NCBI GenBank assembly: GCA_021811105.1
Contig: JAJZPM010000006.1
Span: 1 to 64,000, forward strand
Length of the DNA stretch: 64,000 nt
Reading direction: 5' to 3'
From: Nitrospirota bacterium
GTDB taxonomy: Bacteria > Nitrospirota > Thermodesulfovibrionia > Thermodesulfovibrionales > UBA6898
This document shows positions 39,404 to 64,000 of this stretch, in pieces. Under the pieces are notes generated by a model that was not told the origin of the DNA, searched no databases, and saw nothing but the letters and a program-made list of their open reading frames with translations. How positions within the stretch are numbered: the stretch's first letter is position 1; each line of letters starts with the position of its first letter. Both the position numbers and the translations under genes were made by a program.

Positions 39404-41301
39404 GAGGGTGTCTCCCCTAAAGCGGCCTTCCTGTAAACGACGAAACTGTGCGGGTTCATCGCCACCGAGACCCCCTCCCCCTCTGCGGTGATAACCTCCC
39501 GGGCGACACTTCCCGGCCCTTCCCAACCGCTCGAAGACGAATCTATCAACAATCTCCATGGACCTTGCCCGACCGGAACCGGTATTGTCGGACGCCCGCC
39601 GGAAAAGTTGAATAGACAAAAGACCTCGTCGGCATCAAACCATCTCCTGACGAAGAGAAGGAATTCCATAGGGGACATTACCTCCATCTCCTGCTTAGAT
39701 AAATTGAAGAGGGAAGGCAGACCCCTCCTCAGCGCCACCACTTTTTTGTAGAATTCGAAGAGCGCCTTGTGGGTCCCCTTGCCGAGGAGTCCGATATCTG
39801 TCTTCGAGCGCAAAAACGTCTCTTCCGACTGCGGGTCGGGGGGCTCGCCTTCCCATGCAAAAGATGCGAATTCCAGCTGCCTTCCCTTCCTCACCGCCTC
39901 GATGAGGGCCTTTTCGCTGTGGCTTACGAAATAGAGGAAGGGGGCTCTTTCACCGTATTCCTCTCCCATGAAGAGAAGGGGGATGAAAGGTGACAGGATC
40001 ACGACTCCGGCTGCCAGCTTGAGCTTCTCAAAAGGCAGGATGCTGCTCAGCCTGTCTCCCTTCACCCTGTTTCCGACCTGGTCGTGGTTCTGGGAGAAGA
40101 CCACGAATCCATGGGCCGGGACCTTTTCAGAGGAGTTTCCGTGACTCCTCTTTCTGTAGGTCGAATACCTGCCGTCATAAACGAACCCCTCTCTCATCGC
40201 CTTCTCCATGTCTTCCGTCATGCCGAAATCTTCATAATAGCCTGTCTTTTCCCCTGTCAGGAGAACGTGGAGGGAGTGGTGGAAGTCCTCATTCCATTGG
40301 CAGTCCAGTCCATATCCCCCGGTTTCGGGAGGGTTGACCGTCCTTGAGTCGTTGAGGTCGCTCTCGGCGATGATATAGATATATCTGGCCGTTTCCTTCG
40401 CATATGTGTGGACCGCCTCAGTCAACTCAAGCAGAAAGGGTTTTGCGCTGAAGTCGTAAATCCCGTGGACCGCATCTATCCGGAGGGCGTCTATGCGAAA
40501 TTCCGATATCCAGTAGAGGGCGTTTTCCGTGAAGAACCTCCTCACCTCGTCACTGTGAGGCCCGTCGAAATTGACCGCATCTCCCCAGGGAGTTCTGTAC
40601 CGGTCGGTGAAATAGGGCCCGAAGGTGCTCAGGTAGTTGCCCTCCGGGCCGAGGTGGTTATAGACAACGTCTAGAATAACGGCGAGCCCCCGTCTATGAC
40701 ATTCTCTGATCAGCATCTTGAGTCCGCCGGGGCCGCCGTAGGAATTCTGCGGGGCAAAGGGATAGACACCGTCGTATCCCCAGTTCCGGCTGCCGGGAAA
40801 CTGGGAAACCGGCATGAGTTCCACTGCGGTAACCCCCAATTCGCAGAGATGATCGAGGCAGGGGATGACCGCCTCGAAGGTCCCGCCCTGTGTAAAGGCG
40901 CCGACGTGCAGTTCATAGATGATGAAATCGTTGAGGGGAAGTCCCCTCCACCGACCATCATCCCATGTAAATGCCTGAGGGTCCACGATAGCTGAGGGAC
41001 CGTGCACGCCTTCCGGCTGGAATCTCGACGCAGGGTCCGGCCTCATGCGCCCTTCCCCGAGGTCGTAAAGATAATGTGCGCCGGGGAAAACACCATCGAC
41101 CAAGGCATGCCAATATCCCTTCGGTCCCTTCTCCATCGGCATCATGCATTCCGCGGCCGCAAAGACCTTGATGGACACTCCCTTGCAAAGAGGCGCCCAG
41201 ACAAGAAACTCACACTTCCCGCCTCCCAGATACGTCGGGCCTATGCGGGCAGCCTCCGGGACCGGGCTCAAAGTGCCGTCGCCGCACCTCCCCGCGCTCA
41301 T
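39400..41301 (-). CDS. treZ: Malto-oligosyltrehalose trehalohydrolase
   Basis: A 633-residue GH13 enzyme that releases trehalose from the TreY product. N-terminal carbohydrate-binding Ig-like domain (GGGKCEFLVWAPLCKGVSIKVF), then the barrel: ELHVGAFTQGGTF, LDVVYNHLGPEGNYL, FRIDALRIDAVHGI with the nucleophile Asp, IIAESDLND with the acid Glu, and SQNHDQVGNRVKGDRL. The ATG at 41301 overlaps the treT stop as ATGA. Normal length. Confidence 0.96.
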   Translation of the reverse strand: MSAGRCGDGTLSPVPEAARIGPTYLGGGKCEFLVWAPLCKGVSIKVFAAAECMMPMEKGPKGYWHALVDGVFPGAHYLYDLGEGRMRPDPASRFQPEGVHGPSAIVDPQAFTWDDGRWRGLPLNDFIIYELHVGAFTQGGTFEAVIPCLDHLCELGVTAVELMPVSQFPGSRNWGYDGVYPFAPQNSYGGPGGLKMLIRECHRRGLAVILDVVYNHLGPEGNYLSTFGPYFTDRYRTPWGDAVNFDGPHSDEVRRFFTENALYWISEFRIDALRIDAVHGIYDFSAKPFLLELTEAVHTYAKETARYIYIIAESDLNDSRTVNPPETGGYGLDCQWNEDFHHSLHVLLTGEKTGYYEDFGMTEDMEKAMREGFVYDGRYSTYRKRSHGNSSEKVPAHGFVVFSQNHDQVGNRVKGDRLSSILPFEKLKLAAGVVILSPFIPLLFMGEEYGERAPFLYFVSHSEKALIEAVRKGRQLEFASFAWEGEPPDPQSEETFLRSKTDIGLLGKGTHKALFEFYKKVVALRRGLPSLFNLSKQEMEVMSPMEFLLFVRRWFDADEVFCLFNFSGGRPTIPVPVGQGPWRLLIDSSSSGWEGPGSVAREVITAEGEGVSVAMNPHSFVVYRKAALGETPS

Positions 41302-42509
41302 AACTCTATCACATCTTTTCCCCTGTTTTCGATGCAGTACCATGCCGAGAGATAATCTCTTGTGTGGCGCGTGATGAGGAAGTTCTGCCTCACAAACTCC
41401 CTTGCGTCGGTCCCCATCTTTGTCGCCATCTCAGGGTTGTTGAGCAACTGCCTGACCCTGAAGGCCGCGCCGTCAACAGAATGGACGAGGAAGCCGGTGA
41501 CCCCGTGCAGTATCTGAAGCGGAATGCCTCCGGTTGCGCCCCCGATCACCGCCTTGCCCTTCCACATCGCCTCCGAGACGGTCAGACCGAAGCCCTCCCT
41601 GACGGATTTCTGGAGGATGACCGTTGCCAGGCGCTGGAGCGCATTGATATCCGTATCACTGAACGGGGGAAGCAGGAGGATGCGGATATCGGGGTCATCG
41701 GCGGCATAATCCCTCACCTCCTGTAAAACGATCGCGCCTTCGGGGTCATCGGTCGCAGGGCTTCCCGCAAGGACCAGGACGCAGTCATTGTACTTCCTGA
41801 CGGCCCTGTATGCCTTTATCACACCGACAGGGTCCTTGAAACGGTCAAAACGTGAGACCTGCAGCAGGATCGGCCTTTCCTTCTCCAACCCGAACCTATC
41901 ACGGACAGCCTGGATCTCCTCGGCCGAAAGCTCCCTGTTCTTCTCTGCCAGAGGATCGATTGAAGGGGGGATGATAAACTCCTCAGTTCCCATGGCCCGT
42001 GAAAACTTCGCAACTGAAAAAACAGAGGCATCGTATTTCCGGCTGTACGTTGTGAGCATGTCGCATACATCCCTGCAAGGCGCTGACAGGTCGATGTGGC
42101 ATCTCCAGAGCCAGATTCCGCCCTTCCTGAATTCTATGAGGGGGGCCGGCTGGGGATCGTGTATCAGCACGGCGTCCGCGTCGAGGTCCAGCCTTTCGGC
42201 ATTTCTCCTGTTCACCTCAAAATAATATCGCCACATCTCCTCGTCGATCTTCTCCGTATTGCCCTGGAGCGTGTTATGCAGCTTCTTCGTGATTTCGAAA
42301 AACCGTTCGTCTCCCTCGATTACCTCCCACCGGGCTTCAATGCCGACCCCTTTCAAAATAGGGATCATCCTGTGCAGGATCTCGGCGACACCTCCGCCCG
42401 CACGGGTCGAGTTGACGTGGAGAAAGGTCTTTCCTTTAAGTCTTTCACCCAGCTTCCGGAGAAGGATCAGGTCCCTGGCAGGGGCTATTCCGGCGTATCG
42501 TGAGATCAT
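41298..42509 (-). CDS. treT: Trehalose glycosyltransferring synthase (TreT-like, GT4)
   Basis: A 403-residue GT4 glycosyltransferase related to TreT, which makes trehalose from NDP-glucose and glucose. KTFLHVNSTRAGGGVAEILHRMIP is the acceptor-side glycine loop; WRCHIDLSAP and LLQVSRFDRFKDPVGVIKAY carry the donor-binding Arg and Lys; the E-x7-E motif lies in VREGFGLTVSEAMWKGKAVIGG. The ATG at 42509 overlaps the preceding stop (ATGA). With TreYZ it gives the cell two routes to trehalose, one from free sugar and one from glucan. Confidence 0.9.
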   Translation of the reverse strand: MISRYAGIAPARDLILLRKLGERLKGKTFLHVNSTRAGGGVAEILHRMIPILKGVGIEARWEVIEGDERFFEITKKLHNTLQGNTEKIDEEMWRYYFEVNRRNAERLDLDADAVLIHDPQPAPLIEFRKGGIWLWRCHIDLSAPCRDVCDMLTTYSRKYDASVFSVAKFSRAMGTEEFIIPPSIDPLAEKNRELSAEEIQAVRDRFGLEKERPILLQVSRFDRFKDPVGVIKAYRAVRKYNDCVLVLAGSPATDDPEGAIVLQEVRDYAADDPDIRILLLPPFSDTDINALQRLATVILQKSVREGFGLTVSEAMWKGKAVIGGATGGIPLQILHGVTGFLVHSVDGAAFRVRQLLNNPEMATKMGTDAREFVRQNFLITRHTRDYLSAWYCIENRGKDVIEL

Positions 42510-43177
42510 CCTCCCCCCCCGGTCATTTCCATGTCCCTTCGCACTTCGGCTTCGACTGCACCGGCGATGTAGCGCCTTATCCACTCCAGATCGTGCATAA
42601 AGGGATCAATCGCCCGTACCGCCTCCGCCAGTGCAGGCTTGCCGATCACCCTTTCGAACCAGGCCGAGAAGTCGTCTGTCCCGAGCCTGACCCTCGCGTC
42701 GTAGAAGTGATAATAGACGGCGTTCACATCGATGAAGCGTATCGCTATCAGAAACTCGGCGAGATTTTCAGCCCGTATGCCCGCAGGGTAGATTATGGTC
42801 ACCGTTTCGTTGAAATAGAACTCATCCCCTGCCATCGCCTCCCGGGGATCGGGAAAACGCTCGAGATAGCCGCCGATTATGTCAAGCAGTCTCTTCCTCA
42901 CTTCTTCAGTATCCCTGAATTCATACGGGTCGATGTTCGAGAGCTCTTCCGCGAGCGCCCTTTCTTCAAGCCCCTCCCCCGCCCACTGCGCGAAATCGTT
43001 GGTATATTCCAGAAAGCGTTCCCTCATGAAATACTGATACGTGTGATGGAAGATGGATCCTGCACTCACCACGGCGACGATATCCCTCAACTCCCTGATG
43101 TTGCGCGCCTTCTTACCCGTGGCCTTGAGGATTCCGATGCATTCCTTGAACTCGAAGGGTTCCGATATTTTCTCCAT
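42506..43177 (-). CDS. DUF5752-family protein
   Basis: A 223-residue soluble helical protein matching the DUF5752 type: FEFKECIGILKATGKKARNIRELRD, SIFHHTYQYFMRERFLE..YTNDFAQWA, then a second similar half (YYHFYDARVRLGTDDFSAWF). The two halves share the pattern H-x-Y-x-F/Y...NDFA/DDFSxW, suggesting an internal duplication. It leads the trehalose operon and overlaps treT, so a role in trehalose metabolism is likely; the activity is unknown. Confidence 0.85.
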   Translation of the reverse strand: MEKISEPFEFKECIGILKATGKKARNIRELRDIVAVVSAGSIFHHTYQYFMRERFLEYTNDFAQWAGEGLEERALAEELSNIDPYEFRDTEEVRKRLLDIIGGYLERFPDPREAMAGDEFYFNETVTIIYPAGIRAENLAEFLIAIRFIDVNAVYYHFYDARVRLGTDDFSAWFERVIGKPALAEAVRAIDPFMHDLEWIRRYIAGAVEAEVRRDMEMTGGGG

Positions 43178-46113: not shown

Positions 46114-49100
46114 CTATTCCACGGCCTTCGGCAGTTCCCTCTTCTTCCAGATCTTGTAAATTGCAGGGTAAATCGTAAGCTCGAGTATCTCGGAGGTGAT
46201 GACGCCCCCGATCATGGGGGCCGCGATCCTCTTCATCACATCAGACCCCGCCCCATGACTGAACATGATCGGGATAAGACCCGCCAGGATCACCCCGACG
46301 GTCATGAGCTTCGGCCTGATCCTCTTCACCGCGCCGTGCATGATCGCCTCGTCGAGGTCGGCCACGGTATTCATCCGGCCCTGCTTCTTCCACTCCTCGT
46401 GCGCCAGGTCCAGATAGAGCAGCATCACGACTCCTGTCTCGGCGTCGAGCCCGGCAAGGGCGATCATCCCGACCCATACCGCGATGCTCATATTGTAGTG
46501 CAGCAGATACAGCAGCCAGAACGATCCGACAAGCGAGAAAGGAACCGCCAGCATAACGATGAAGGACTTAGTGACAGACTTCGTGTTGAAGTATAGAAGC
46601 ACGAAAATGATGAGGACCGTAAGGGGAATCACCAGCTTAAGCCGCTCGTGCGTCTTGACGAGGTATTCGTACTCCCCGGACCATTCGAGCCTGTAGCCTT
46701 CCGGGAGTTTTACGGCAGCGGCGACTTTTTCCTGGGCCTTCTTCACATAGCCGCCGACGTCTCCGCCAGAATAATCGATATAGACATAATTGGCGAGCAG
46801 ACCTTCCTCGCTCTTGATCGAGGTGGGACCCTTCACGATCCGGACGTCTGCGATCTCTCCGAGCGGGACATTGGCGGACGCCTCTGCGGGCGCCGGTCCG
46901 GCCATCATTTCTTTCCCGACACCTCCCGCGCCGCCTCCCGCGGGCCTCACGGGCACGAGGACCCGTTTTATCTTTGCGATATTATTCCGCAGCTCCCTCA
47001 TGTATCTTACGTCCACCGGATAGCGCTCCCTGCCCTCTACTGTGACCGTGATATTCATGCCGCCCAGGGCCGTCTGTATCACGTCCTGCACATCGTCGAC
47101 GGACAGCCCGTAGCGGGCTATCTCGTCACGCTTCGGTGTAATATCGAGAAAATATCCGGTCATGACCCTCTCGGCATAGGCAGACCTCGTGCCGGGGATG
47201 TTTTTGACAGCGTCCTCTACCTCCTTCGACACCTTTGCGAGTTCTTCCAGTCTCGGACCGATCACCTTCACCCCTGCATTCGTCCTTATGCCGGTAGCGT
47301 TCATGTCTATCCTTGCCTTGATCGGCATCGTGAAGGAATTCGCGACGCCCGGGATCTGGAGCGTGTCGTTCATCTCGTTCTTGAGCTTCTCGACGGTCAT
47401 GCCCTTGCGCCATGCCGACCGCGGCAGTTCTTTCTTGATGCCTAACCAATATAGAAGCCTATCCGTGATTGACGGCCGCTCGTCCGGCTTGAGGTTCACG
47501 ACAGTCTCAAACATCTCGATAGGCGCAGGGTCGGTGGCGGTATCGGCCCTCCCTGCTTTCCCGAAGACCTGAGAGATCTCAGGTATAGTCATGAGAAGCT
47601 TGTCCTGAAGCTGAAGAAGCCGGGAGGCGAGAGAAACAGAAATCCCCGGCACGGTGACCGGCATATAAAAGAGCGTCCCCTCATAGAGCGGGGGCATGAA
47701 TTCCGAGCCGAGCTTTTTGACCGGAAATACCGTCAGCGTCATGATCACTACCGCAAGAACAATGATCAGCCAGCTGTGCTTGAGAGAAAAATGGACCCTC
47801 GGTTTATAGAGCTTCCCAAGGAAGTTGACGATCGGGTTTTCGGACTCGGGTTTGATGTTCCCGCGGATAAAGAGCGACATCAGGACCGGGGTAAGCGTGA
47901 TTGCAAGGAACGAAGCGAAGAGCATCGCGAAGGTCTTGGTAAAGGCAAGGGGTTTGAAGAGCCTTCCGGCCTGCGACTCGAGCGTAAAGACGGGCAGGAA
48001 CCCGACGGTGATCACGAGAAGAGAAAAAAAGAGCGAAGGCCCTACCTCCTTTGCCGCGTCGATGATCACGTCAAGCCTGCTGCACCTCTTCCTTCCATCG
48101 CAGATCCATTCCTCCATTTTCTTGTGAGCGTTTTCGACCATGATGATGGAGGCGTCTACCATCGCGCCGATTGCGATCGCGATGCCGCCGAGGCTCATGA
48201 TGTTGGAGGTCACGCCGAGGTAATACATGCAGATAAAGGAGATGACTATCGCGACCGGAAGGGTCAGGATCACCACAAGCGCGCTCGGGAGATGGAAGAG
48301 GAAGATGAGACAGACGACGCTCACCGCGATCGAGAGTTTTATGATCTCCTCCTTCAGCGTGTCGATAGACTTATGGATGAGGTCGGACCGGTCGTAGGTA
48401 ACGACGATCCTCACGCCCTTCGGCAGCGACGGCTGAATATCCTTTGCGATCTTTTCCTTCACCCGGTCAATGACGTTCAGGACGTTCTCTCCGAAACGGA
48501 CGACGACGATCCCCCCGGCTACCTCTCCCTTGCCGTCGAGTTCCGCAACTCCTCTCCTTATGTCCGGGCCGAGCTGCACACGGCCGACGTCGCGCACGTA
48601 GATCGGCGTGCCGTTTCCGTTTGTGCCGACCACGATGTCCTCTATATCCCTGATGCTCTTGATATACCCGCGGCCACGCACCATGTATTCGGCGCCGGAG
48701 AACTCCACGACCCTGCCTTCCACATCCTTGTTGCCGGCCCGCACCGCATCGACGACCTTCATGATGGGAATATTGTAGGCGGCAAGACGGTTCGGATCGA
48801 CGTTCACCTGGTACTGTTTTACAAACCCGCCCACGGAAGCCACCTGGGAGACGCCGGGCACGCTTTCGAGCGCGAGCTTGATGTTCCAGTCCTGGATGGA
48901 CCTCAGCTGCCAAAGATTATGCCCGCCCGTGTCGTCGACTACGGCGTACTCGAAACCCCATCCGATGCTCGTCGCATCAGGACCGAGCACTGGGGTCACA
49001 CCGGGAGGCAGCTTGCCTTTCACCGAATCGATATATTCGAGCACACGGCTCCGGGCCCAGTAGATGTCCGTGCCCTCGTCGAAGATGATATAGATGAAGG

Positions 49101-49371
49101 AACTCCCGAGAAAGGAAAATCCCCGGACCGCCTGGACCCTCGGCGCTGCAAGAAGCGTCGAGGTGATCGGATAGGTGACCTGGTTTTCGACAAGGTCGGG
49201 ACTTCTGCCCGGCCAGTCGGTGAAGATGATCACCTGCGTGTCGCTGAGGTCGGGTATCGCATCGAGAGGGATGTTCCTGAGCGCCCATATCCCCCACAGC
49301 AGGAGAAAGCCGACCATCAGGAAGATGATAAACTTGTTCCTCACACTGTATTCGATGATCTTCGAAATCAT
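46114..49371 (-). CDS. cusA: Heavy-metal RND efflux pump, CusA-like
   Basis: A 1085-residue HME-type RND pump for Cu(I)/Ag(I). It starts MISKIIEYSVRNKFIIFLM, and IPLDAIPDLSDTQVII is the HME hallmark. Helix 4 has IAIGAMVDASIIMVENAH. The three CusA substrate Met positions have counterparts: Met in FYMPVTVPGIS, in DPAPIEMFETVV and in KARIDMNATG, which argues for Cu(I)/Ag(I) over Zn/Co. It forms a pump with the adaptor and channel encoded upstream, though a short gene relic separates it from cusB. Confidence 0.93.
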   Translation of the reverse strand: MISKIIEYSVRNKFIIFLMVGFLLLWGIWALRNIPLDAIPDLSDTQVIIFTDWPGRSPDLVENQVTYPITSTLLAAPRVQAVRGFSFLGSSFIYIIFDEGTDIYWARSRVLEYIDSVKGKLPPGVTPVLGPDATSIGWGFEYAVVDDTGGHNLWQLRSIQDWNIKLALESVPGVSQVASVGGFVKQYQVNVDPNRLAAYNIPIMKVVDAVRAGNKDVEGRVVEFSGAEYMVRGRGYIKSIRDIEDIVVGTNGNGTPIYVRDVGRVQLGPDIRRGVAELDGKGEVAGGIVVVRFGENVLNVIDRVKEKIAKDIQPSLPKGVRIVVTYDRSDLIHKSIDTLKEEIIKLSIAVSVVCLIFLFHLPSALVVILTLPVAIVISFICMYYLGVTSNIMSLGGIAIAIGAMVDASIIMVENAHKKMEEWICDGRKRCSRLDVIIDAAKEVGPSLFFSLLVITVGFLPVFTLESQAGRLFKPLAFTKTFAMLFASFLAITLTPVLMSLFIRGNIKPESENPIVNFLGKLYKPRVHFSLKHSWLIIVLAVVIMTLTVFPVKKLGSEFMPPLYEGTLFYMPVTVPGISVSLASRLLQLQDKLLMTIPEISQVFGKAGRADTATDPAPIEMFETVVNLKPDERPSITDRLLYWLGIKKELPRSAWRKGMTVEKLKNEMNDTLQIPGVANSFTMPIKARIDMNATGIRTNAGVKVIGPRLEELAKVSKEVEDAVKNIPGTRSAYAERVMTGYFLDITPKRDEIARYGLSVDDVQDVIQTALGGMNITVTVEGRERYPVDVRYMRELRNNIAKIKRVLVPVRPAGGGAGGVGKEMMAGPAPAEASANVPLGEIADVRIVKGPTSIKSEEGLLANYVYIDYSGGDVGGYVKKAQEKVAAAVKLPEGYRLEWSGEYEYLVKTHERLKLVIPLTVLIIFVLLYFNTKSVTKSFIVMLAVPFSLVGSFWLLYLLHYNMSIAVWVGMIALAGLDAETGVVMLLYLDLAHEEWKKQGRMNTVADLDEAIMHGAVKRIRPKLMTVGVILAGLIPIMFSHGAGSDVMKRIAAPMIGGVITSEILELTIYPAIYKIWKKRELPKAVE

Positions 49372-49529
49372 TTATTGGTGACTGGGGATTGGGACTTAGG
49401 GTTTAGTTTAGAGACAAGGCTGCGAATCTGTTTGCCGAGTATATCTATGCGCTGAACAATAACATCACGCGTGCCTTCATTCATATATCCAAGTTCATCT
49501 GCGATAATTATCACCTGTTTTGTCGTTTC
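49368..49529 (-). pseudogene. C-terminal relic of a four-helix-bundle (23S rRNA intervening-sequence type) protein
   Basis: The frame reads TTKQVIIIADELGYMNEGTRD, then IDILGKQIRSLVSKLNPKSQSPVTNK-stop, the last helix of S23-type four-helix-bundle proteins with their usual PKSQ tail. Upstream the frame breaks into GGTTAGGGATTGGGG-like repeats. The TGA overlaps the cusA ATG. It is an insertion remnant inside the cus operon. Confidence 0.6.
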
Positions 49530-49561
49530 CAACCCCTAACCCCCAATCCCTAATATCTGTC

Positions 49562-50794
49562 TTAGTGTTTATGCCCGCTCAGCGGCACCACACCCTGCAG
49601 CTGGGCCTCGGAATCGATAAGGAACGTGGCTGCCGAGGCGACCTTTTCGCCCGCCTTGAGTCCCTTCAGTACCTCTGCCATCCCTTCAGCCCTGACCCCA
49701 AGCAACACCTCCCGCGGCTCGAAGTTACCCTCGCCCCTGTCGACATAAACGATCTGGCGGGTGCCGGTATCGATCACCGCGTTGTCAGGGACCGAAAGCT
49801 TCTTTCCGAGACCGATCTTCACCTCGACGTTCGTGTACATCTGCGGCTTGAGCCGCCCCCCGAAATTTGGGACCTCGAACCTCACTTTTGCGGTCCTCGT
49901 CTGACCGGAAATGGTTGGGTAGACATAGTCGATGCGCGAAGAGAATTCCTTGCCGGGAAAATAGCTGAGGGAGATCGTCGCCCTTTCGCCCGGCTTCACC
50001 AGCGAAAGTTCGTATTCGTAGAAGTCCGCGATAATCCAGAGTGTCGACAGGTCCGCCAGATCAAAAAGCTTTTCTCCCGGCATCACCTTCATCCCCTGGA
50101 GCGCCGCCTTCTGGACCACGTAGCCGTTCGCAGGGCTGTAGACTGTTAGGGTCCTTACAGGCTTACCGGTCTCCTCAATCTTCTTTATCTGTGCCTCGCT
50201 TATGTCCCACAGCCTCAATCTCTGTTTTGCCGCCTCGACGAGCGCATCGGCATCACCTTTCAGCATGCCTGTCATGCCCTCGTACTTCACGTCGCTGGCC
50301 TTCCCCTGTCCCGCCCATTTTAACACGTTGATAAACTCCTGCTGCGTCGCCACAAGTTCCGGGCTGTAGATCTCCGCCAAAGGCTCTCCCTTTTTCACAT
50401 ACTTGCCGTTGTAATCGACATAGAGCTTCTCGATCCAGCCCTCGAATTTCGTATTGACCGTTGATAGCCTTCTTTCGTCATAGTCCACGATCCCCACGGT
50501 CCTGATCACCTCGGTGAGAGGTCTCACCTTCACCTCGACGGTCTTCACCCCTATCAGTTGCTGCTTATCGGACGATATCTCGATGGTAGGCACCTCTTCC
50601 TCTTCGTCGACTGCAGTGTCCTGCGGCGCTGCATTCTTAGCCTTTTCTGCCGGCGCAGCTTGCGGCCCCGGTGAAACCTGCGCCCTCGGCACGGTCTTCT
50701 TGTTTTTCTGGCCGAACCCTGAATTCGACAGAGAAAAAATCAATCCTGCGGCAATGGCCACTGCCGCTATGACTATCAGATGACCTTTTTTCAT
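49562..50794 (-). CDS. cusB: Metal efflux periplasmic adaptor, CusB-like
   Basis: A 410-residue membrane-fusion protein with an N-terminal anchor (HLIVIAAVAIAAGLIFSL), a Pro/Ala-rich linker of about 40 residues, then barrel-sandwich halves around a short helical hairpin: VDYDERRLSTVNTKFEGWIEKLYVDYNGKYVKKGEPL and YSPANGYVVQKAALQGMKVMPGEKLF. The DADALVEAAKQRLRLWDIS hairpin is typical of CusB. ATG overlaps the cusC stop (ATGA). It ends in SGHKH, which could bind metal. Confidence 0.93.
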   Translation of the reverse strand: MKKGHLIVIAAVAIAAGLIFSLSNSGFGQKNKKTVPRAQVSPGPQAAPAEKAKNAAPQDTAVDEEEEVPTIEISSDKQQLIGVKTVEVKVRPLTEVIRTVGIVDYDERRLSTVNTKFEGWIEKLYVDYNGKYVKKGEPLAEIYSPELVATQQEFINVLKWAGQGKASDVKYEGMTGMLKGDADALVEAAKQRLRLWDISEAQIKKIEETGKPVRTLTVYSPANGYVVQKAALQGMKVMPGEKLFDLADLSTLWIIADFYEYELSLVKPGERATISLSYFPGKEFSSRIDYVYPTISGQTRTAKVRFEVPNFGGRLKPQMYTNVEVKIGLGKKLSVPDNAVIDTGTRQIVYVDRGEGNFEPREVLLGVRAEGMAEVLKGLKAGEKVASAATFLIDSEAQLQGVVPLSGHKH

Positions 50795-52089
50795 CGCATT
50801 TGTCCTCCCGGCCCGGTGCCTCCCGTGACCGCTTCGATCCTGGCTATCGCCTTTTCCCTCTCGGAGAATTGTCCCCAGTACAGGGTCTCATATTCAAGGA
50901 GCGCCTTGAGTCTAGATATGACCGTGAGCGCGTCCACCTTGCCGGTAACGTACCCGGAAAGGGCCGAATCGAAATCCTGATATGTCTTGGGGATCAGACC
51001 GTTCTTATACAGGTCCATAAGTTTTTCCGCAGTCCTGACCATGGAATAGTTGTCCCTGATGCCCGAGGCGATCAACAGTTTCGTCGCTTCGAGCTCGTTC
51101 TTGGCCCCGACCTGCAGCGCCTCGGCCTCGAAAACGCCCTGTCTCTGCTTTGTCTTGTAATAGAGAGGGATATTGATCGCCGTCCTGAGCGCCCACATGT
51201 CCATAAAGGGCCCGCCCTTTTTGTCATATTCGGCGGAAACGGTAAAATCAGGATAATATTCCTTCTTGGCGAGCAGGACCTTCACCCGGGAGGCGGCGAC
51301 CATCCTCTCTTTCGCCTTGATCTCCGGAGACCTTTCATAAGCGCTCATCAGAAGCCTGTCCATGCTTTCTTCGTACGGGCGGTATGCGGGCTCGACCGGC
51401 CTTCCGAGCGGCGTGTTCACGTCCCTTCCGACAGTCGTATTGAGCATCGCCTCGGTCGACTGGATCTTCTGCCTGAACATCTCCTCTTTCTCGAGGAGCA
51501 TATATTTTTCGGCCTGGGCCATCAGGACCTCCTGTTGTGAGCCTTTTCCCGAGGAGTATCGCGCAAGCGCAGCGTCTTCGATCTGTGAGAAGAGGGCCGT
51601 TTTCGCTCTGACCAGCTCAAGGTCCTTGTAGGCGAGAAGGAGATCGTAATAAAGCTCCTTCACTTTCGCCGCAATCCGCAGCCTTGTCGACAGATGAAGA
51701 TCGCCAAAGGTCTCTGCGTCCCTAGACGCGGCATCTTCTTTTAATCCCAGTTTACCCGGAAACGGAAACAGCTGAGACGCCGAGAACATCCAGGCGGACA
51801 TGAGGGTCTCTCCGTAGGAATACCGGTCGAACCCCTCGTTTTGGTAGCCGACCATGAACATGGGGTCCGGCAGGCTCTTAGCCTGGGGTATTCTGAACCG
51901 CGCCGCATCGGCCCTCGCCTCCGATGCGAGCACTTCGGGACTGTTCTTCAGCGCCTCATCGATCAGAGGTTGAAGCTCCAGATTTTCAGCGGCACGTGCC
52001 GGACCGCCGAGGAGGAAGATACAGGCAAGGAGGACGGCTGCCCAGTGCGGCAGAAGCCGCTTCCCGAGAGTCCTTCGGCTGAGTGCCAT
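50791..52089 (-). CDS. cusC: Metal efflux outer-membrane channel, TolC family (CusC-like)
   Basis: A 432-residue TolC-family protein with a cleavable signal (AAVLLACIFLLGGPARAAE). Two repeats of long helices and strands: LKNSPEVLASEARADAARFRIPQAKSLPDPMF and YERSPEIKAKERMVAASRVKVLLAKKEYYPDFTVS. The absence of a lipobox differs from E. coli CusC. It starts the cusCBA run and overlaps cusB. Confidence 0.9.
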   Translation of the reverse strand: MALSRRTLGKRLLPHWAAVLLACIFLLGGPARAAENLELQPLIDEALKNSPEVLASEARADAARFRIPQAKSLPDPMFMVGYQNEGFDRYSYGETLMSAWMFSASQLFPFPGKLGLKEDAASRDAETFGDLHLSTRLRIAAKVKELYYDLLLAYKDLELVRAKTALFSQIEDAALARYSSGKGSQQEVLMAQAEKYMLLEKEEMFRQKIQSTEAMLNTTVGRDVNTPLGRPVEPAYRPYEESMDRLLMSAYERSPEIKAKERMVAASRVKVLLAKKEYYPDFTVSAEYDKKGGPFMDMWALRTAINIPLYYKTKQRQGVFEAEALQVGAKNELEATKLLIASGIRDNYSMVRTAEKLMDLYKNGLIPKTYQDFDSALSGYVTGKVDALTVISRLKALLEYETLYWGQFSEREKAIARIEAVTGGTGPGGQMR

Positions 52090-56334: not shown

Positions 56335-56390
56335 TATGAGTAAATTGCCGGACGGCAGTTTATATCTTTATTATGGGAGGAGGTTCACGA

Positions 56391-56639
56391 ATGAAGAAGT
56401 TAGTGATTATTATGTTCGGTTTGATGATTGCGCTTTCCCTGACGTTCATGGGATGCCAGAAAAAGGAGGAGGCACCCGCGCCGGCTCCTGAAACGGCACC
56501 CGCACCGGCTCCTGCACCGGCACCGGCTCCTGAGAAGAAGGAAGAGGCAGCACCGGCCCCCGCGCCTGAGCAGAAGAAAGAGGCGGCTCCGGAGAAGAAA
56601 GAGGCGGCTCCTAAAAAGAAACCCGCAGCCGGTTATTAA
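56391..56639 (+). CDS. Small lipoprotein with Ala/Pro and Lys/Glu repeats
   Basis: An 82-residue lipoprotein: signal MKKLVIIMFGLMIALSLTFMGC with the lipidated Cys at 22, then a low-complexity tail of APAPAPE and KKEEAAP repeats ending KKKPAAGY. The tail has no fold; such tails may span the periplasm or bind peptidoglycan. The start follows GGAGGAGG. It has its own promoter and terminator. The sequence is simple, so homology is hard to judge; the expression signals make it convincing. Confidence 0.82.
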   Translation: MKKLVIIMFGLMIALSLTFMGCQKKEEAPAPAPETAPAPAPAPAPAPEKKEEAAPAPAPEQKKEAAPEKKEAAPKKKPAAGY

Positions 56640-56836: not shown

Positions 56837-59800
56837 ATGGAAAAAGAAACAATCAGTACTGAAAGCGGCGTCGTACTGTCTGTCGAAAAACAGGCCGATG
56901 ATGTCCGCGCGGAATTGGATATCAGCAGCAACGCTGCTGTGCCGTGCCTCCTTCACTGGGGACTCCGTCGGCGCGGAGACCCTTCCTGGCAGGCGCCTCC
57001 TCCTGATTCCTGGCCGGAAGGAAGCCGCGCATTTGACGAAAAGGCGATCCAATCCCCCTTTCTCAGGCAGGACGGCCAGGGCCGGATAACAATCAGACTC
57101 GGGAAATCATCGGATTTCCGGTCGATCGACTTCGTCCTCTTTTTCCCGGACGAAAACCGCTGGGACAACAACAGGGGAAAAAATTACCGGATCGAAATCC
57201 CGGGACGGCCGTCACCCTATGAGCCGGCACTCGGCGACCGCGCAGTCGCGGAGATCGCCGAGGAAATCATAGAGCATGAGACCTCCGGGAATTCCTGGAC
57301 ACTGATGCACCGGTTCAATCTCTGCTACGACCTGTTGGACAAGGCAAAAGATACGGAAGAAGGCCTTGCCCTTGTCTTCGTCTGGCTCCGCTACTCTTTT
57401 ATCAGGCAGCTGGATTGGCAGCGGAATTACAATACGAAACCAAGGGAACTCGGCCATGCCATGGACCGCCTCACCCTTAAACTTGCCGGCATCTACGGGG
57501 AGCTTCCCGAAAGAAGGGAACTGGTGCGCCTCATCATGACCACCCTCGGCAGGGGCAGCGACGCCCAGAGGGTGCGAGACGAAGTGCTGAATATAATGCA
57601 CCGTCACCACATAAAGGAGGTTTCGGGCCGCTTCATGGAAGAGTGGCACCAGAAGCTTCACAATAATGCAACGCCGGACGATATCGTCATCTGCGAGGCA
57701 TACCTCGAATTTCTAAGGAGCAACGGCAACCTCGAAAGGTTCTATAAAACACTCAATGACGGCGGCGTTACGAAGGAAAGGCTTGAAGGCTATGAACGGC
57801 CGATACGTTCTCATCCGGATTTCATTCCGCATCTGAAGGACGCCCTCATAGGGGACTTCGAGCATTTCCTTGGCATCCTGAAGGCTGTCCATGCCGGCAC
57901 GGACCTCGGAAGCGCCATACATGCGGCACGCTACCTCTTCGACAGCGACATGCACCAGCTCATGGATTTCATATGGTATCATCACGACGACTGGAAGATG
58001 CCCGCGGTCCAGCTCTCCGAAAAAACCACCGAGGCCCGCCGACGTATCGCAAGGTTGCTGTCGGGGCATCAGGACAGGATACGGGACCTGCTCTTCCTTG
58101 ATATTGCGCTCGCGGATTTCCTGAGGATCGTCACAGAGAAGAATCTCGGCCCTGATCAGGGTCCCAATGAATTGGTGGACCTCGCTGCATCGATGCTCGA
58201 AACCCTCTGCCTGTCCGGCCAGGGAGAAGAACTGGACTATGTCAGGAAAGATTGGGAACGGCTCGGGAAGAAGCCGCGATTCGACAGGGAATGGTCCCTG
58301 CATGCAAAGGCGGTTTCCGATCGCATGGCCGCCGTTGTCGGGGAGTCTGTAGACAGGCTGAACAGACTGCTCCAGCCGAAGGCGAAATTCCTCGGCAAGG
58401 CATTTCATGCCCAGACGTGGGCCGTAGAACTGTTCAGTGAAGAAGTCGTACGCGGCCTGCCGGTCTTCGCCTTGTCGCTTGTCCTGAGATACCTGGATCC
58501 CCTGCTGAGGAAGAGCGCACATATGGGGAACTGGCAGCTAATAAGCCCCGGTGAAGGGACCGCTGAAATAGCGGTGACGGAGACATTGAAGTCTGTTCAG
58601 GGCAGAAGTTTTTCACACCCGGTCCTGATCGTCACTGATAAGGTCTCGGGCGACGAAGAGATCCCCGGCGGAGTTGTCGCCATCATCACCCCTGCGGTCA
58701 TCGACATACTCGCGCATCTTGCGGTCCGTGCGAGGAATGCAGGCGTCCTTTTTGCGACCTGCTACGACACGGGACTTATCGGCAATTTGAAATCGCTTCT
58801 GGGCCACACGGTAAAGATAGGCATACGCAGCGGCGATGTGGTATTCGAGGAGAGCAGCAGCCTCGTTGAGACGACTGCTGAGAGGCACGCCCCCCTCCGA
58901 CATGCCGCATCGCGTCCTTCTTTCACTTCCTATGCGCTTACGATGGAGGAATTCAACGAAGATAATGTCGGCGGAAAATCGAACCACCTGAAGCAGCTGA
59001 GGGGAAAACTTCCCGACTGGATCGGCCTTCCGGCGTCAGCGGCGATCCCCTTCGGTGTCTTCGAAAAAGTACTGACTGATAAAGCAAACTCCGAAGCTGC
59101 AACGCAGTACAGTCGCCTTCTGGCAGAGGTTGAAAAAGGGGGCGAGAACAAAGTGGAACTTCTCCAGGCGCTCCGCGAGAATATACTGAAGCTTGCGGCG
59201 CCTGATGAGCTCGTTGCCTCCCTGCGTGTTGTCATGGAAAAATCCGGGCTCCGGTGGCCGGAGAATTGGGAAGACGCCTGGACCTGCATCCGGAAGGTCT
59301 GGGCCTCAAAATGGAACGAGAGGGCCTATCTCAGCCGCAAGGCAAACAACATATCCCATGACGACCTTTTTATGGCTGTGCTGATCCAGTCCATTGTCGC
59401 GGCAGATTATAGTTACGTGATCCACACCGTCAACCCCTCCACCGGAGCAAGCGAAGAGATTTACGCCGAGGCTGTGAAGGGACTCGGGGAGGCGCTCGTC
59501 GGCAATTATCCGGGCAAGGCCTACAGCTTCACCTGCCGGAAGGGGCAACCACAACCCCGGCTGCTTTCCTTTCCGAGCAAACGAGAAGGACTTTTCGGGA
59601 CGGGCATGATCTTCAGGTCCGACTCCAACGGCGAAGACCTGGCCGGATTCGCAGGTGCCGGACTTTACGACAGCTTCATCTTCCCGAAGCCCCGCAGGAT
59701 CACCCTCGATTACAGCGCCGACCCGCTTATCTGGGACGACTCATTCAGAAATAATTTTTCTGTCGCGATCGCCGAGATTGGTGAACTTGTCGAAGGGGCG

Positions 59801-59884
59801 CTGGGACCGCCGCAGGATATCGAGGGCGCATACTCGAAAGGTAATTTTTTCGTGGTCCAGTCACGGCCCCAGGTGGGCGTCTGA
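56837..59884 (+). CDS. Alpha-glucan, water dikinase homologue (plant GWD1-like)
   Basis: A 1015-residue dikinase. Residues 1-125 form a CBM45-like beta domain (CLLHWGLRRRGDPSWQAPP). Residues 140-460 match the plant GWD middle: NYNTKPRELGHAMDRLT, then IMTTLGRG, MEEWHQKLHNNATPDDIVIC, KTLNDGGVTKERLEGYERPI, LKAVHAGTDLGSAI. The phosphohistidine domain has the catalytic His627 in DILAHLAVRARN, then LFATCYD. The C-terminal ATP-binding domain has KVWASKWNERAYLSRK, ADYSYVIHTVNPS and FRSDSNGEDLAGFAGAGLYDS. GWD transfers the beta-phosphate of ATP to glucose units of starch. The next gene follows directly (TGA-ATG). Glycogen or a related polymer is the likely substrate; this is inference. Confidence 0.9.
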   Translation: MEKETISTESGVVLSVEKQADDVRAELDISSNAAVPCLLHWGLRRRGDPSWQAPPPDSWPEGSRAFDEKAIQSPFLRQDGQGRITIRLGKSSDFRSIDFVLFFPDENRWDNNRGKNYRIEIPGRPSPYEPALGDRAVAEIAEEIIEHETSGNSWTLMHRFNLCYDLLDKAKDTEEGLALVFVWLRYSFIRQLDWQRNYNTKPRELGHAMDRLTLKLAGIYGELPERRELVRLIMTTLGRGSDAQRVRDEVLNIMHRHHIKEVSGRFMEEWHQKLHNNATPDDIVICEAYLEFLRSNGNLERFYKTLNDGGVTKERLEGYERPIRSHPDFIPHLKDALIGDFEHFLGILKAVHAGTDLGSAIHAARYLFDSDMHQLMDFIWYHHDDWKMPAVQLSEKTTEARRRIARLLSGHQDRIRDLLFLDIALADFLRIVTEKNLGPDQGPNELVDLAASMLETLCLSGQGEELDYVRKDWERLGKKPRFDREWSLHAKAVSDRMAAVVGESVDRLNRLLQPKAKFLGKAFHAQTWAVELFSEEVVRGLPVFALSLVLRYLDPLLRKSAHMGNWQLISPGEGTAEIAVTETLKSVQGRSFSHPVLIVTDKVSGDEEIPGGVVAIITPAVIDILAHLAVRARNAGVLFATCYDTGLIGNLKSLLGHTVKIGIRSGDVVFEESSSLVETTAERHAPLRHAASRPSFTSYALTMEEFNEDNVGGKSNHLKQLRGKLPDWIGLPASAAIPFGVFEKVLTDKANSEAATQYSRLLAEVEKGGENKVELLQALRENILKLAAPDELVASLRVVMEKSGLRWPENWEDAWTCIRKVWASKWNERAYLSRKANNISHDDLFMAVLIQSIVAADYSYVIHTVNPSTGASEEIYAEAVKGLGEALVGNYPGKAYSFTCRKGQPQPRLLSFPSKREGLFGTGMIFRSDSNGEDLAGFAGAGLYDSFIFPKPRRITLDYSADPLIWDDSFRNNFSVAIAEIGELVEGALGPPQDIEGAYSKGNFFVVQSRPQVGV

Positions 59885-62800
59885 ATGCCCGACAGGCCCC
59901 GCATCCGGATAGGCAATCAGACCGCCTTTTCCGCAGAAAGAGTGACCCTTCCCTTCGAGTTCGCTGTCGACCACGGCTTCGACGCCTTCGAATGGTTCCC
60001 TGACAAGAAGGAAACAGGAGAGGGCTGGACGGTTCGGGACATTCCGGCTGAAGTCCGCTCATCGATTAGGGCAACTGTGGAGGCCCGCGATATTCGTCTT
60101 TCGGTCCATGCGCCCTGGCCGTCTGACCCTTTAAGCGGGGATGCCGCCCAGTCTTTCAATGATGCGATCGATTTCGCAAAGCAGATCGGCGCATCTCTCT
60201 TTATTGTCCATCTCAGGACGGACCTTGGGATCGGGGCTTATGCCGAGGCGCTCCGGCCTTTCATGCAACTTCTCAGGGAGGCGGGGATCGGTCTTGCAAT
60301 AGAAAATACTGTCTTAACTTCGCCCAAGGACATGACAGCTATTTCCCGGCATCTGAGCGGATTCGGCGAAGATACGGCATCTCACGTAGGAATATGTCTT
60401 GACCTGGGCCACGCAAACCTCTTCCGCGAAACCCGCAACGACTACCTCAGGTTCTTCGACATGCTCGGCCCGGAAGTCCCCATAGTTCATGTCCACATGC
60501 ATGAAAACTACGGGGACCAGGACAATCATCTCACGATCTTCACCGGGCCGGCGGGGAAAGACGCCTCCGGCATCAGGGCATTTGTCGAGCGACTGAAGAA
60601 AAGAAATTTCTCCGGCTCCATCATCCTGGAACAGTGGCCGAGTCCCGAAGGCCTGCTCGTCGAAGCCCGCAACCGTCTGATCGAAATACTTGGCACAAGG
60701 CCGGAGCACCAGCAGGCAAAGAGCAGCGCACCGGAGGAGGAAGATAACGTCACCAAGTTTGTGGAGGCAAACAGACGTTTACTCAGTTGGAGAAAACGCC
60801 TCGAATGGGTACTGCGCTTGCTGACGGATACTACAGAGGGGCCCGGCCCCGAACTCCTGACGTATATAGCCGTCTATCTGCGCTTCTTAGGCACAGGGGA
60901 GGTACGTTGCAGCGAAGACGGCGGCCACTACCGTCCCTCGCGTCATGCTAATATCTCAGGACATATCTATGAGAGACTCGTCACCCTTGCCACTGCCGAC
61001 AACCGGTTCGTAGTGAGGAAGATATATCCCTGGCTCCCCTCTTTCGACAGCGAGTTCAGGCGTTCGGAGCCGCTCACGCTCATCAGGGATATAGCCCACC
61101 GGAACGATATCCCCCGGGAGCTGAAGCAGGAGATCAAGACAACACTCCAGAACAAGCTGCACCGCTCGGCAGGGCCTGAGGACCTCGCCGTCTCCTCGGC
61201 GCTACTGGAAAGGATCACGGCACCGGGCGCTTCCTATCCGCAGTCATTTGTCGCGGAATTCAGGCGATTTCACGAGGAGCTGAAGGATTTTTTCAACGCC
61301 GGCTCGCTTAAGGAACTGCTCCTCCGGATCATCGAAAAAGATGAATTCGGGGACGTTCCGCTACTTCATGAATTTATCGCCATCCTCGACCGTCAAGGGA
61401 AAGACCGCGACGCGCTGAAGGCGCTTGAACTTCTCACAAACATCCGTGCCCGCCTCGTGCCGCAAACTCTCACTGACAGCGGCGCGACAGGCCTCCGGCT
61501 GCAGATCGCAGATATCAGGCTCGAAGACCATTCATTCGTTCTTCTCAGCCTTATCACAAATGCTGTCGAAGGCCGCATCGCCCGGGAGAAGATGCCATGG
61601 AAAACAGCGCTTCGTGCTTCCGTGCTTGCGGTGGCAAACATTCGCTTCGGCGGATTCGACCCCGAAGAATGTGCGGCAATAGAAGCGGAGACGGAGTCGG
61701 TGTCTTCTGTGTTCGATCACCGCAGGCGGGATAGTCTCCTCAGGCTGAAGGCTTCGGCCGACAGGTGCCTGAGACTTGCCGAATCATATAGAGACAAGAT
61801 CCTTGCACTTTTTCCGGAAAAAGCGAAGATGCTTGGACGGGCACTCGGTGTCGCAGAACATGCGATCAGTGTCTATGCGGACGCTGATATCAGAAGCCAT
61901 CCGGTTTTTCAACTTTCCAAGCTGGCCTCACTTCTCCTGAAGGAGATCAGGGAAGCGGCGTCGCTTCCCTTCTGTGACGTTATCGTGCCGGGGGCTGCCG
62001 GTGGAAGACTTCTGACCGGCCCTTCCCTTTTGTCTCTGCCGGTCACGCAGGACGGACCGGCCGTTGTGCTCACGGAGCGGGCAGCGGGAGACGAGGAGAT
62101 ACCCCCTTATGTCACCGGCATTATCGTCACCGTCGAAACTCCACTACTTTCCCATCTCGCCGTGCGCGCCCGCCAAAACGGCACTGTTTTTATATTCTGC
62201 GGGGATTCGAAGCGGATCGAAGAAATAAAGACATTTTCGGGGAAACCGATCTCGATCGCTACAGCCGGCGGGAATTTCCGGGTCTCCTCTGCCGAATTCA
62301 GCAGCAGCGGGGAGTCCGGCAGACTATGCTTAAGGACAGCCGGACTGATCGCGCCGCCGATAGAGTATCCGGGAGAGGCGCTGATCGCTCTGGACCTCAT
62401 AAGCACTTCGGCGGGAGGCGGGAAGGCGTATGGCGCCCGCAGACTCGGGGAGATCGCTGAGACGGAGAGTGCGGGATTCAGGGTGCCCGGGGGCCTCGTG
62501 GTCCCCTTCGGCGTTATGGAAGCATCGCTTCGTTCCAATTCCGCCCTGGCTGAGGAATATGCATCGCTGACCGCAGAAATCGATCGCCCGGCGCTGTCTG
62601 CGCAGAACGTCTGCCTCAGGAGGCTGAGGGAGATCATCATGCAGCTTATGCCGCCCGGCGAAGTGCTCTCCGGGGTGGCCCGGCATTTTGCGAAAGACAG
62701 CATGCTGATGGTACGTTCCAGTTCCAACTGCGAAGATGCCGAAGGCATGGCCGGGGCGGGTATCTACGATTCTGTTGCGAACGTGCCGTTGTCCGAAACC

Positions 62801-63364
62801 ACCGTAGCAATACCCAGGGTCTGGGCGTCACTCTGGAACAGGCGTGCGCTTGATGCCAGAAGGAATGCGGGCATCGCGCATGAAGCTTGCCGCATGGCGG
62901 TACTCATCCAGCCCGTGATCCCGGCAGACATTTCCTTTGTCATGCACACCGTCAATCCTGTCAGCGGGAACGAAGATGAAATACTCATAGAGTTAGCAGT
63001 AGGACTGGGAGAAACACTTGTATCGGGCCGCGAACCCGGATCTCCTTTTCGCATGATATACCATAAGAAGACCGGGGACCTGGAGATTCTCTCTTTTGCA
63101 AGCTATAGCTTCCGGTTGCGGCCGACCGGCCGCGGAGGAACTGTCAGGGAGAGAGTCGATTACTCGGCAATACCTTTTTCCCGTGACGAGGATTTCAGGC
63201 GGAAATTAGCTATGCACATAGGAGAATCCGGCGGTCTGGTGGAGCGTGCTTTAGGCAAGCCCCAGGACATAGAAGGGGTCGTCAAAGGCGAAGAGATTTA
63301 CCTCGTTCAGGCACGGCCCCAGCAAACAGGCCGACAGACAGGGAGGAAGGAATGTCCGACATAG
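59885..63364 (+). CDS. Fusion: xylose-isomerase-like TIM barrel + phosphoglucan-water-dikinase-like protein
   Basis: A 1159-residue two-part protein. Residues 1-275 are a sugar-isomerase/AP-endonuclease-2 type TIM barrel with its metal-site strands: SVHAPWPSDP, GLAIENTVL (Glu), ICLDLGHANL (Asp, His), VHVHMHENYGDQDNH (His), SIILEQWP (Glu). The rest resembles dikinases: a helical middle, a phosphohistidine domain with catalytic His757 in PLLSHLAVRARQNG, and a C-terminal ATP-binding domain (MLMVRSSSNCEDAEGMAGAGIYDS, VWASLWNRRALDARRN, ISFVMHTVNPVSGNEDEI). It begins right after the GWD stop. It may be a second-step dikinase, as PWD follows GWD in plants; the barrel role is unknown. Confidence 0.85.
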   Translation: MPDRPRIRIGNQTAFSAERVTLPFEFAVDHGFDAFEWFPDKKETGEGWTVRDIPAEVRSSIRATVEARDIRLSVHAPWPSDPLSGDAAQSFNDAIDFAKQIGASLFIVHLRTDLGIGAYAEALRPFMQLLREAGIGLAIENTVLTSPKDMTAISRHLSGFGEDTASHVGICLDLGHANLFRETRNDYLRFFDMLGPEVPIVHVHMHENYGDQDNHLTIFTGPAGKDASGIRAFVERLKKRNFSGSIILEQWPSPEGLLVEARNRLIEILGTRPEHQQAKSSAPEEEDNVTKFVEANRRLLSWRKRLEWVLRLLTDTTEGPGPELLTYIAVYLRFLGTGEVRCSEDGGHYRPSRHANISGHIYERLVTLATADNRFVVRKIYPWLPSFDSEFRRSEPLTLIRDIAHRNDIPRELKQEIKTTLQNKLHRSAGPEDLAVSSALLERITAPGASYPQSFVAEFRRFHEELKDFFNAGSLKELLLRIIEKDEFGDVPLLHEFIAILDRQGKDRDALKALELLTNIRARLVPQTLTDSGATGLRLQIADIRLEDHSFVLLSLITNAVEGRIAREKMPWKTALRASVLAVANIRFGGFDPEECAAIEAETESVSSVFDHRRRDSLLRLKASADRCLRLAESYRDKILALFPEKAKMLGRALGVAEHAISVYADADIRSHPVFQLSKLASLLLKEIREAASLPFCDVIVPGAAGGRLLTGPSLLSLPVTQDGPAVVLTERAAGDEEIPPYVTGIIVTVETPLLSHLAVRARQNGTVFIFCGDSKRIEEIKTFSGKPISIATAGGNFRVSSAEFSSSGESGRLCLRTAGLIAPPIEYPGEALIALDLISTSAGGGKAYGARRLGEIAETESAGFRVPGGLVVPFGVMEASLRSNSALAEEYASLTAEIDRPALSAQNVCLRRLREIIMQLMPPGEVLSGVARHFAKDSMLMVRSSSNCEDAEGMAGAGIYDSVANVPLSETTVAIPRVWASLWNRRALDARRNAGIAHEACRMAVLIQPVIPADISFVMHTVNPVSGNEDEILIELAVGLGETLVSGREPGSPFRMIYHKKTGDLEILSFASYSFRLRPTGRGGTVRERVDYSAIPFSRDEDFRRKLAMHIGESGGLVERALGKPQDIEGVVKGEEIYLVQARPQQTGRQTGRKECPT

Positions 63365-64000
63365 AGAGATGTCCCAGGATTATGGCGTTGTTCCAAAAAA
63401 GGATAGACGGCGATGACGCGCTTCTCAGGCTGGCCAGTCTCCGCTTCAGGGAGGCCCGTCTCGGCGCGGAGTATTACGCCGAATCCCCCGACGAACTCGA
63501 GTGGCTTCTCGGCTTCAGGCCCTTTCATGATGCCCCCGTTGCCGTCCACCTGCACCGGGATCTCAATATCAGCGAGGAATGGGGCAGACGGCTTATCTTC
63601 GATTTTGCCGGCCGCTTCAAGGGAAGGATTTACGGCATTGTCGTCCACGACCGGCCTGAGACTGCGTCGCGGTTCGATGAGTATCTTGCAGCGGTGAGGG
63701 ATACCGCCTCCCGCCTGGGGCAGATCGAAGGGTGTCCCGGTCTTTTTATCGAATATGCCGCAGGGATCGATCCCGAGATTTTTGTCCTCCTTTTCAGGTC
63801 GGTCGCCGACCTCGACAAAGTGAGTGCGTGCGTCGACATCGGGCATATAGGCATCCGGCAGGCGAGGGTCCTTTTTTCGAAGAAATACCCTGATAAGGAC
63901 ATCTGCAGCCTGAGGCCTGACAGTCCCGAACTTCCCTCCCTGATTGGAGACGTCGAAGGCGTCGTCCGCTCGGGACGGGAGAAAGTGCTTCAGGTTATAA
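63352..64000 (+). CDS. Sugar-isomerase-like protein, partial (runs off the window)
   Basis: A frame open from ATG 63352 (AGGGAGGAAGG ribosome site) to the window end, 216 codons so far, overlapping the end of the fusion gene by 13 bases. Segments GLFIEYAAGIDPEIF, KVSACVDIGHIGIRQARVLF and early AVHLHRDLNI resemble the E and D-x-G-H metal strands of the xylose-isomerase-like barrel. It seems to be a stand-alone relative of the barrel fused to the dikinase upstream. The 3' end is not in the window. Confidence 0.75.
   Translation, partial: MSDIERCPRIMALFQKRIDGDDALLRLASLRFREARLGAEYYAESPDELEWLLGFRPFHDAPVAVHLHRDLNISEEWGRRLIFDFAGRFKGRIYGIVVHDRPETASRFDEYLAAVRDTASRLGQIEGCPGLFIEYAAGIDPEIFVLLFRSVADLDKVSACVDIGHIGIRQARVLFSKKYPDKDICSLRPDSPELPSLIGDVEGVVRSGREKVLQVI

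Follow-up and report, generated by a model that had tools for sequence, protein, structure and literature searches.

The window analyzed here is a stretch of 64,000 nucleotides (positions 1 to 64,000, forward strand) of contig JAJZPM010000006.1 from a member of Nitrospirota (assembly GCA_021811105.1). Near its 3' end is an operon of three genes. They encode a homologue of plant glucan, water dikinase (GWD), a second dikinase fused to a barrel domain (barrel 1), and another barrel (barrel 2) fused to an enzyme of glycoside hydrolase family 13 (GH13). The operon comes from a 118-kb contig within a 3.9-Mb genome with a completeness rating of 100%. Same-genus relatives (L050, L051, and L109) are public Nitrospirae genomes, and the host belongs to Nitrospirota. 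The genes and their domains are as follows.

56837-59884, plus strand: gene 1, GWD homologue, 1015 aa
56843-57199, plus strand: gene 1, Ig-like GWD N-terminal module (Pfam PF23166, 78.7 bits)
57254-58519, plus strand: gene 1, GWD-specific helical middle domain (match to the solved plant GWD domain 9ha9)
58529-58858, plus strand: gene 1, phosphohistidine domain (PF22973, 110 bits), catalytic His627 at 58715-58717
58949-59872, plus strand: gene 1, nucleotide-binding domain, with a relocated RSDSNGED motif (residue 927) after W-A-S-K-W-N (822)
59885-63364, plus strand: gene 2, barrel 1 fused to a second, putative GWD/PWD-type dikinase, 1159 aa
59894-60700, plus strand: gene 2, barrel 1 (AP_endonuc_2) with nine endonuclease IV-type metal ligands
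60722-61966, plus strand: gene 2, middle domain, remotely related to that of GWD
61976-62293, plus strand: gene 2, phosphohistidine domain (PF22973, 70 bits), His757 at 62153-62155
62417-63343, plus strand: gene 2, nucleotide-binding domain (PF01326, PPDK_N, 144.5 bits), RSSSNCED (944) preceding WASLWN (980)
63352-64000, plus strand: gene 3, barrel 2 and GH13, 782 aa, of which the first 216 are in the window; it continues to contig base 65700 (L031:7352-9700)

The three open reading frames (ORFs) adjoin or overlap as the initial annotation described. The TGA of gene 1 is followed by the ATG of gene 2 with zero gap, and genes 2 and 3 share a 13-base overlap.

From its N-terminus onward, gene 1 matches in Pfam the Ig-like domain of GWD, then the GWD phosphohistidine domain (GWD1_pHisD, cut-off 27 bits), and then PPDK_N. 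The N-terminal module, which had been called a CBM45-like start, is actually the Pfam GWD Ig-like domain. It is found as a single copy here and as two copies in three longer bacterial GWDs. Residues 140-561 align with the plant domain 9ha9 (E 3.8e-87), to which the best bacterial homologues are ~42% identical. His627 is invariant in all 59 homologues, and the catalytic region is strongly conserved among 17 diverse bacterial homologues. The phosphohistidine domain precedes the nucleotide domain, and there is no phosphoenolpyruvate (PEP)/pyruvate domain. The GWD family was not found in 14 control genomes. On sequence grounds, gene 1 is a true GWD homologue with its catalytic His, as initially proposed. 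The redox motif of land plants, CFATC, reads LFATC in gene 1, where only the second Cys (C642) is kept; plant-type redox control is therefore unlikely.

Gene 2 has its own dikinase with His757, again in agreement with the initial annotation. This residue is invariant in 23 of 23 homologues; the nucleotide-binding motifs do not vary among homologues either. Residues 455-694 score against a GWD middle-domain profile with E 3e-13. The order of the nucleotide-binding motifs is canonical in gene 2 (RSSSNCED before WASLWN) and reversed in gene 1. Plant GWD1 and phosphoglucan, water dikinase (PWD) show an equal difference in motif order, which serves as a lead only. After His757 there is a V-F-x-x-C motif, loosely like VFVTC of plant PWD. 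The AP_endonuc_2 barrel occupies the N-terminus, and CBM20 was not found by the Pfam search. A tree of the middle domain, whose plant side consists of a single GWD domain, places plant GWD beside bacterial gene 1 and apart from the second dikinase (support 100). Gene 2 reads as a second dikinase of GWD/PWD type that has diverged strongly. Domain order and NCBIfam scores, all far under cut-off, led to the rejection of PEP synthase, PPDK, and rifamycin phosphotransferase as identities. The initial annotation had named placement in these families as an outcome that would speak against a glucan dikinase; this did not come about, as the Pfam family, the middle domain, and the order of domains are all of the GWD type. 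PPDK_N fragments are also present in two further long frames of the genome, of ~1394 and ~1467 aa (G000:C63:3618-4430 and G000:C30:25943-26614). In a Pfam search, neither these frames nor other PPDK_N proteins of the genome outside the operon matched the GWD phosphohistidine domain.

Gene 3 from about residue 360 onward matches GH13 enzymes and the glucanotransferase domain of debranching enzyme, and its alpha-amylase domain is above cut-off. The GH13 catalytic triad (D524, E553, and D608) is invariant in 24 homologues. The C-terminal half is predicted to be an intact GH13 glucan hydrolase/transferase. It lies outside the window and was missed in the initial annotation, which had described the third gene as a second barrel. 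Pfam gives no match for the first 345 residues, and barrel 2 has no sequence match in the PDB. In a profile comparison (hhalign), barrel 2 matches barrel 1 at 95% (E 4e-8) with most ligands conserved, although it lacks a Pfam match and its fold matches are weak. A model of the L109 homologue is TIM-barrel-like (pLDDT 88.7).

Barrel 1 matches Pfam AP_endonuc_2 above cut-off (86.7 bits) and is predicted to be a TIM barrel (pLDDT 91.5). Its closest fold in Foldseek is MJ1311; epimerases and endonuclease IV rank behind. The fold by itself cannot tell an isomerase from a phosphoesterase, but the ligand residues can. Nine residues of barrel 1 (H75, H109, E140, D173, H176, H202, D213, H215, and E249) are all invariant in 40 sequences. 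Their order and spacing match those of the nine ligands in the trinuclear metal site of endonuclease IV, as reported in PMC13113976, and a profile search aligns them with endonuclease IV chains. Most of them sit at the C-terminal ends of predicted strands. Because these nine ligands are invariant, we infer that barrel 1 is a metal-dependent phosphoesterase rather than an isomerase and is a candidate glucan phosphatase. A phosphorylated glucan is its likely substrate because of the genes that accompany it. Two other identities were rejected: CbiR, on its NCBIfam score (41.6 bits, equivalog cut-off 105 bits) and context, and the DNA-repair enzyme endonuclease IV, on score and context.

When 84,980 species genomes were scanned, 71 loci were recovered. 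They are found in Nitrospirota, Thermodesulfobacteriota, Planctomycetota (including the anammox bacterium Scalindua), Verrucomicrobiota, Acidobacteriota, Nitrospinota, Pseudomonadota, and deltaproteobacterial lineages. Across phyla the parts of the cluster exist as single genes or in varied fusions, with their order kept. Three anammox loci (Scalindua and Anammoxibacter) have GWD and barrel 1; in Scalindua, the second dikinase is present as well, and so is barrel 2. In Nitrospirota, GWD is above cut-off in 23 of 296 genomes. Barrel 1 is present in 21 of these 23, and the remaining 273 all lack it (Fisher p 3e-30, shared ancestry ignored). In several genomes it is distant from GWD (e.g., positions 22.6 kb vs 677 kb in a single-contig genome), so the link is more than shared DNA. 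Barrel 2 occurs only together with the second dikinase. Where the downstream sequence is long enough, 17 of the 20 loci that have this dikinase also have barrel 2, against 0 of the 19 that lack it; in Nitrospirota, seven of the ten genomes in which two dikinases matched have it, against 0 of the 286 others.

The survey of gene neighbours proposed in the initial annotation shows that the cluster recurs in several phyla near genes for glycogen/starch synthase and branching enzyme. GT5 starch/glycogen synthase is found at 11 GWD loci and GH57 branching enzyme at 13. GH57-DUF3536 or CBM48-GH13 genes are also often present. The host genome itself encodes GT5 and glycogen phosphorylase, and no dual-specificity phosphatase of the laforin/SEX4 type was found in it. 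Within the window, 14 kb from the operon, there is a trehalose cluster of TreT, TreZ, and TreY (36422-42584, minus strand). With this set of enzymes, trehalose is made from alpha-glucan. DUF4912 proteins, solo or fused to GT4 glycosyltransferases, recur beside bacterial GWD genes (at eight loci and others). These proteins may belong to alpha-glucan metabolism.

The operon is probably a bacterial system of alpha-glucan phosphorylation and turnover that works like the GWD/PWD cycle of plants. Homology, conserved catalytic residues, conservation of the operon, co-occurrence, and the alpha-glucan gene context are observed. The substrate, the phosphorylated positions, and the chemistry of the barrels are predictions from these. 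The dikinases most likely act on glycogen or a starch-like polymer. Gene 1 would bind this polymer through its N-terminal module and transfer the beta-phosphate of ATP by way of His627 to glucosyl residues, which would loosen ordered chains. The gene 2 dikinase would phosphorylate another position or chains that are already phosphorylated. The GH13 enzyme of gene 3 would attack the loosened glucan. Both metallo-barrels are candidate phosphoesterases that would take the phosphate off, the role of SEX4 and LSF2 in plants. For this phosphatase step alone, the chances are about even.

Several points weigh against the proposed cycle. Every step of it is a prediction. The GWD of the window carries one N-terminal module. 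The fold of barrel 1 resembles sugar epimerases equally well, and no function is assigned to any close relative of the barrel; MJ1311, the best match in the PDB, is uncharacterized. Ten of the 39 GWD loci whose flanks are long enough show no barrel nearby, and two of the 23 GWD genomes of Nitrospirota have no barrel 1 at all. Shared ancestry is left out of the Fisher tests.

The dikinase pathway could be the same while the barrels are isomerases or epimerases that handle sugars or sugar phosphates freed by glucan breakdown. The top Foldseek matches of barrel 1 include many ketose 3-epimerases and UlaE, and the members of Pfam AP_endonuc_2 are mostly isomerases. Of the nine ligands of the endonuclease IV site, however, epimerases retain only about four (E, D, H, and E), whereas the full site is invariant in the 40 barrel 1 sequences. 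Moreover, barrel 1 co-occurs strictly with GWD and not with sugar catabolism, and it is fused to a dikinase. This alternative is unlikely, though it fares best among those considered. The initial annotation had proposed a two-dikinase system with sugar-isomerase-like partners. A GWD and a second GWD/PWD-type dikinase do exist in one operon, but the nine-ligand site fits phosphoesterase partners better than isomerase-like ones.

Slightly less likely again is that the second dikinase is regulatory or inactive, or that the cluster modifies glycogen during synthesis instead of opening it for breakdown. Gene 2 is strongly diverged, and genes of synthesis adjoin many loci. Yet gene 2 homologues all keep the catalytic His and the nucleotide-binding motifs, and the operon includes a GH13 enzyme. 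It is improbable that the dikinases act on another polysaccharide (e.g., an envelope or extracellular polymer) and not on a storage alpha-glucan. Their substrate is predicted, and gene 2 is far from GWD in sequence with no recognizable starch-binding module. However, gene 1 has both the N-terminal and the middle domains of GWD, the partner enzyme is GH13, and many loci have GT5, GH57, and CBM48 neighbours. Finally, assembly contamination or a recent transfer from algae is very improbable: all matches are from uncultured genomes and transfer to some bacteria was proposed from the 2018 tree (PMC6260743), but the genes exist in single-contig genomes and neighbouring species of the same genus (on which contamination was rejected), are spread widely and deeply over several phyla, and have operon partners unknown in plants.

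Two other features of the window lie outside the operon. Just 5' of it, at 56373-56639 (plus strand), is a small lipoprotein-like ORF of 88 aa with proline/alanine/glutamate/lysine repeats; its antisense frame yields a spurious 141-aa ORF. At 46114-52089 (minus strand), judged from the ORFs, is a CusA/CzcA-type heavy-metal RND efflux operon, which consists of the pump, a membrane fusion protein, and an outer-membrane factor.

GWD-catalyzed phosphorylation of glucan has been regarded as characteristic of eukaryotes that store starch and are linked to plastids (PMC6260743). The same 2018 tree already held bacterial GWD sequences, for which gene transfer was suggested, and no pathway was described (PMC6260743). 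The statement of the initial annotation that it knew of no described bacterial pathway of this form is overstated in view of these sequences. In the open-access literature, only the 2018 tree was found for bacterial GWD; neither the operon nor a glucan phosphatase from bacteria turned up there, an absence that is weak evidence. A survey from 2009 reported that bacteria lack glucan phosphatases and judged a bacterial one unlikely (PMC2714694). A study of plants placed the split between GWD and PWD in the last common ancestor of Archaeplastida; it found no homologue in the cyanobacterium closest to them (PMC6805951). In the middle-domain tree, a bacterial clade is neither shown nor rejected (p-AU 0.709), the plant domain being a single one on a long branch. 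It can be suggested only tentatively, and the odds are rather against it, that the barrels are the first bacterial glucan phosphatases, with fold and metal chemistry unlike laforin and SEX4, that they are paired with two dikinases, and that algae and plants derive their GWD/PWD pair from one that bacteria already had. The conserved operon makes testable both the origin of plant GWD and PWD and a possible reversible phosphorylation of storage glucans by bacteria. It also offers compact enzymes for starch modification.

Among known systems, gene 1 is most like plant GWD1 (EC 2.7.9.4), with which it shares the Ig-like N-terminal module, the middle domain, the phosphohistidine domain, the C-terminal nucleotide domain, and the catalytic His. 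It differs in being bacterial and part of an operon, in having one N-terminal module, and in reading LFATC for CFATC, a motif of land-plant GWD1 that is not universal across the GWD family. Gene 2 recalls plant PWD/GWD3 (EC 2.7.9.5): in each case one organism has a further, divergent dikinase from this superfamily, and the V-F-x-x-C near the His of gene 2 is loosely similar. Gene 2 bears an endonuclease IV-type barrel, however, where PWD has CBM20. The plant enzymes phosphorylate alpha-glucan at C6 (GWD) and, only once it carries phosphate, at C3 (PWD). PEP synthase, PPDK, and rifamycin phosphotransferase share with both the ATP-binding domain and the phosphohistidine mechanism, but their domain order is opposite, and GWD lacks the PEP/pyruvate domain and has domains of its own. 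Endonuclease IV and CbiR of the AP endonuclease 2 superfamily have the TIM-barrel fold and nine-ligand metal site of barrel 1, which is fused or linked to glucan enzymes and not to genes of DNA repair or cobamide. The reaction proposed for the barrels, removal of phosphate from glucan, is that of laforin, SEX4, and LSF2, to which they are unrelated in fold and chemistry. Gene 3 shares the domain family and catalytic triad of GH13 enzymes such as the glucanotransferase domain of eukaryotic debranching enzyme, GlgE, and neopullulanase. Its GH13 domain, however, belongs to a distinct GWD-linked group and is here fused to barrel 2.

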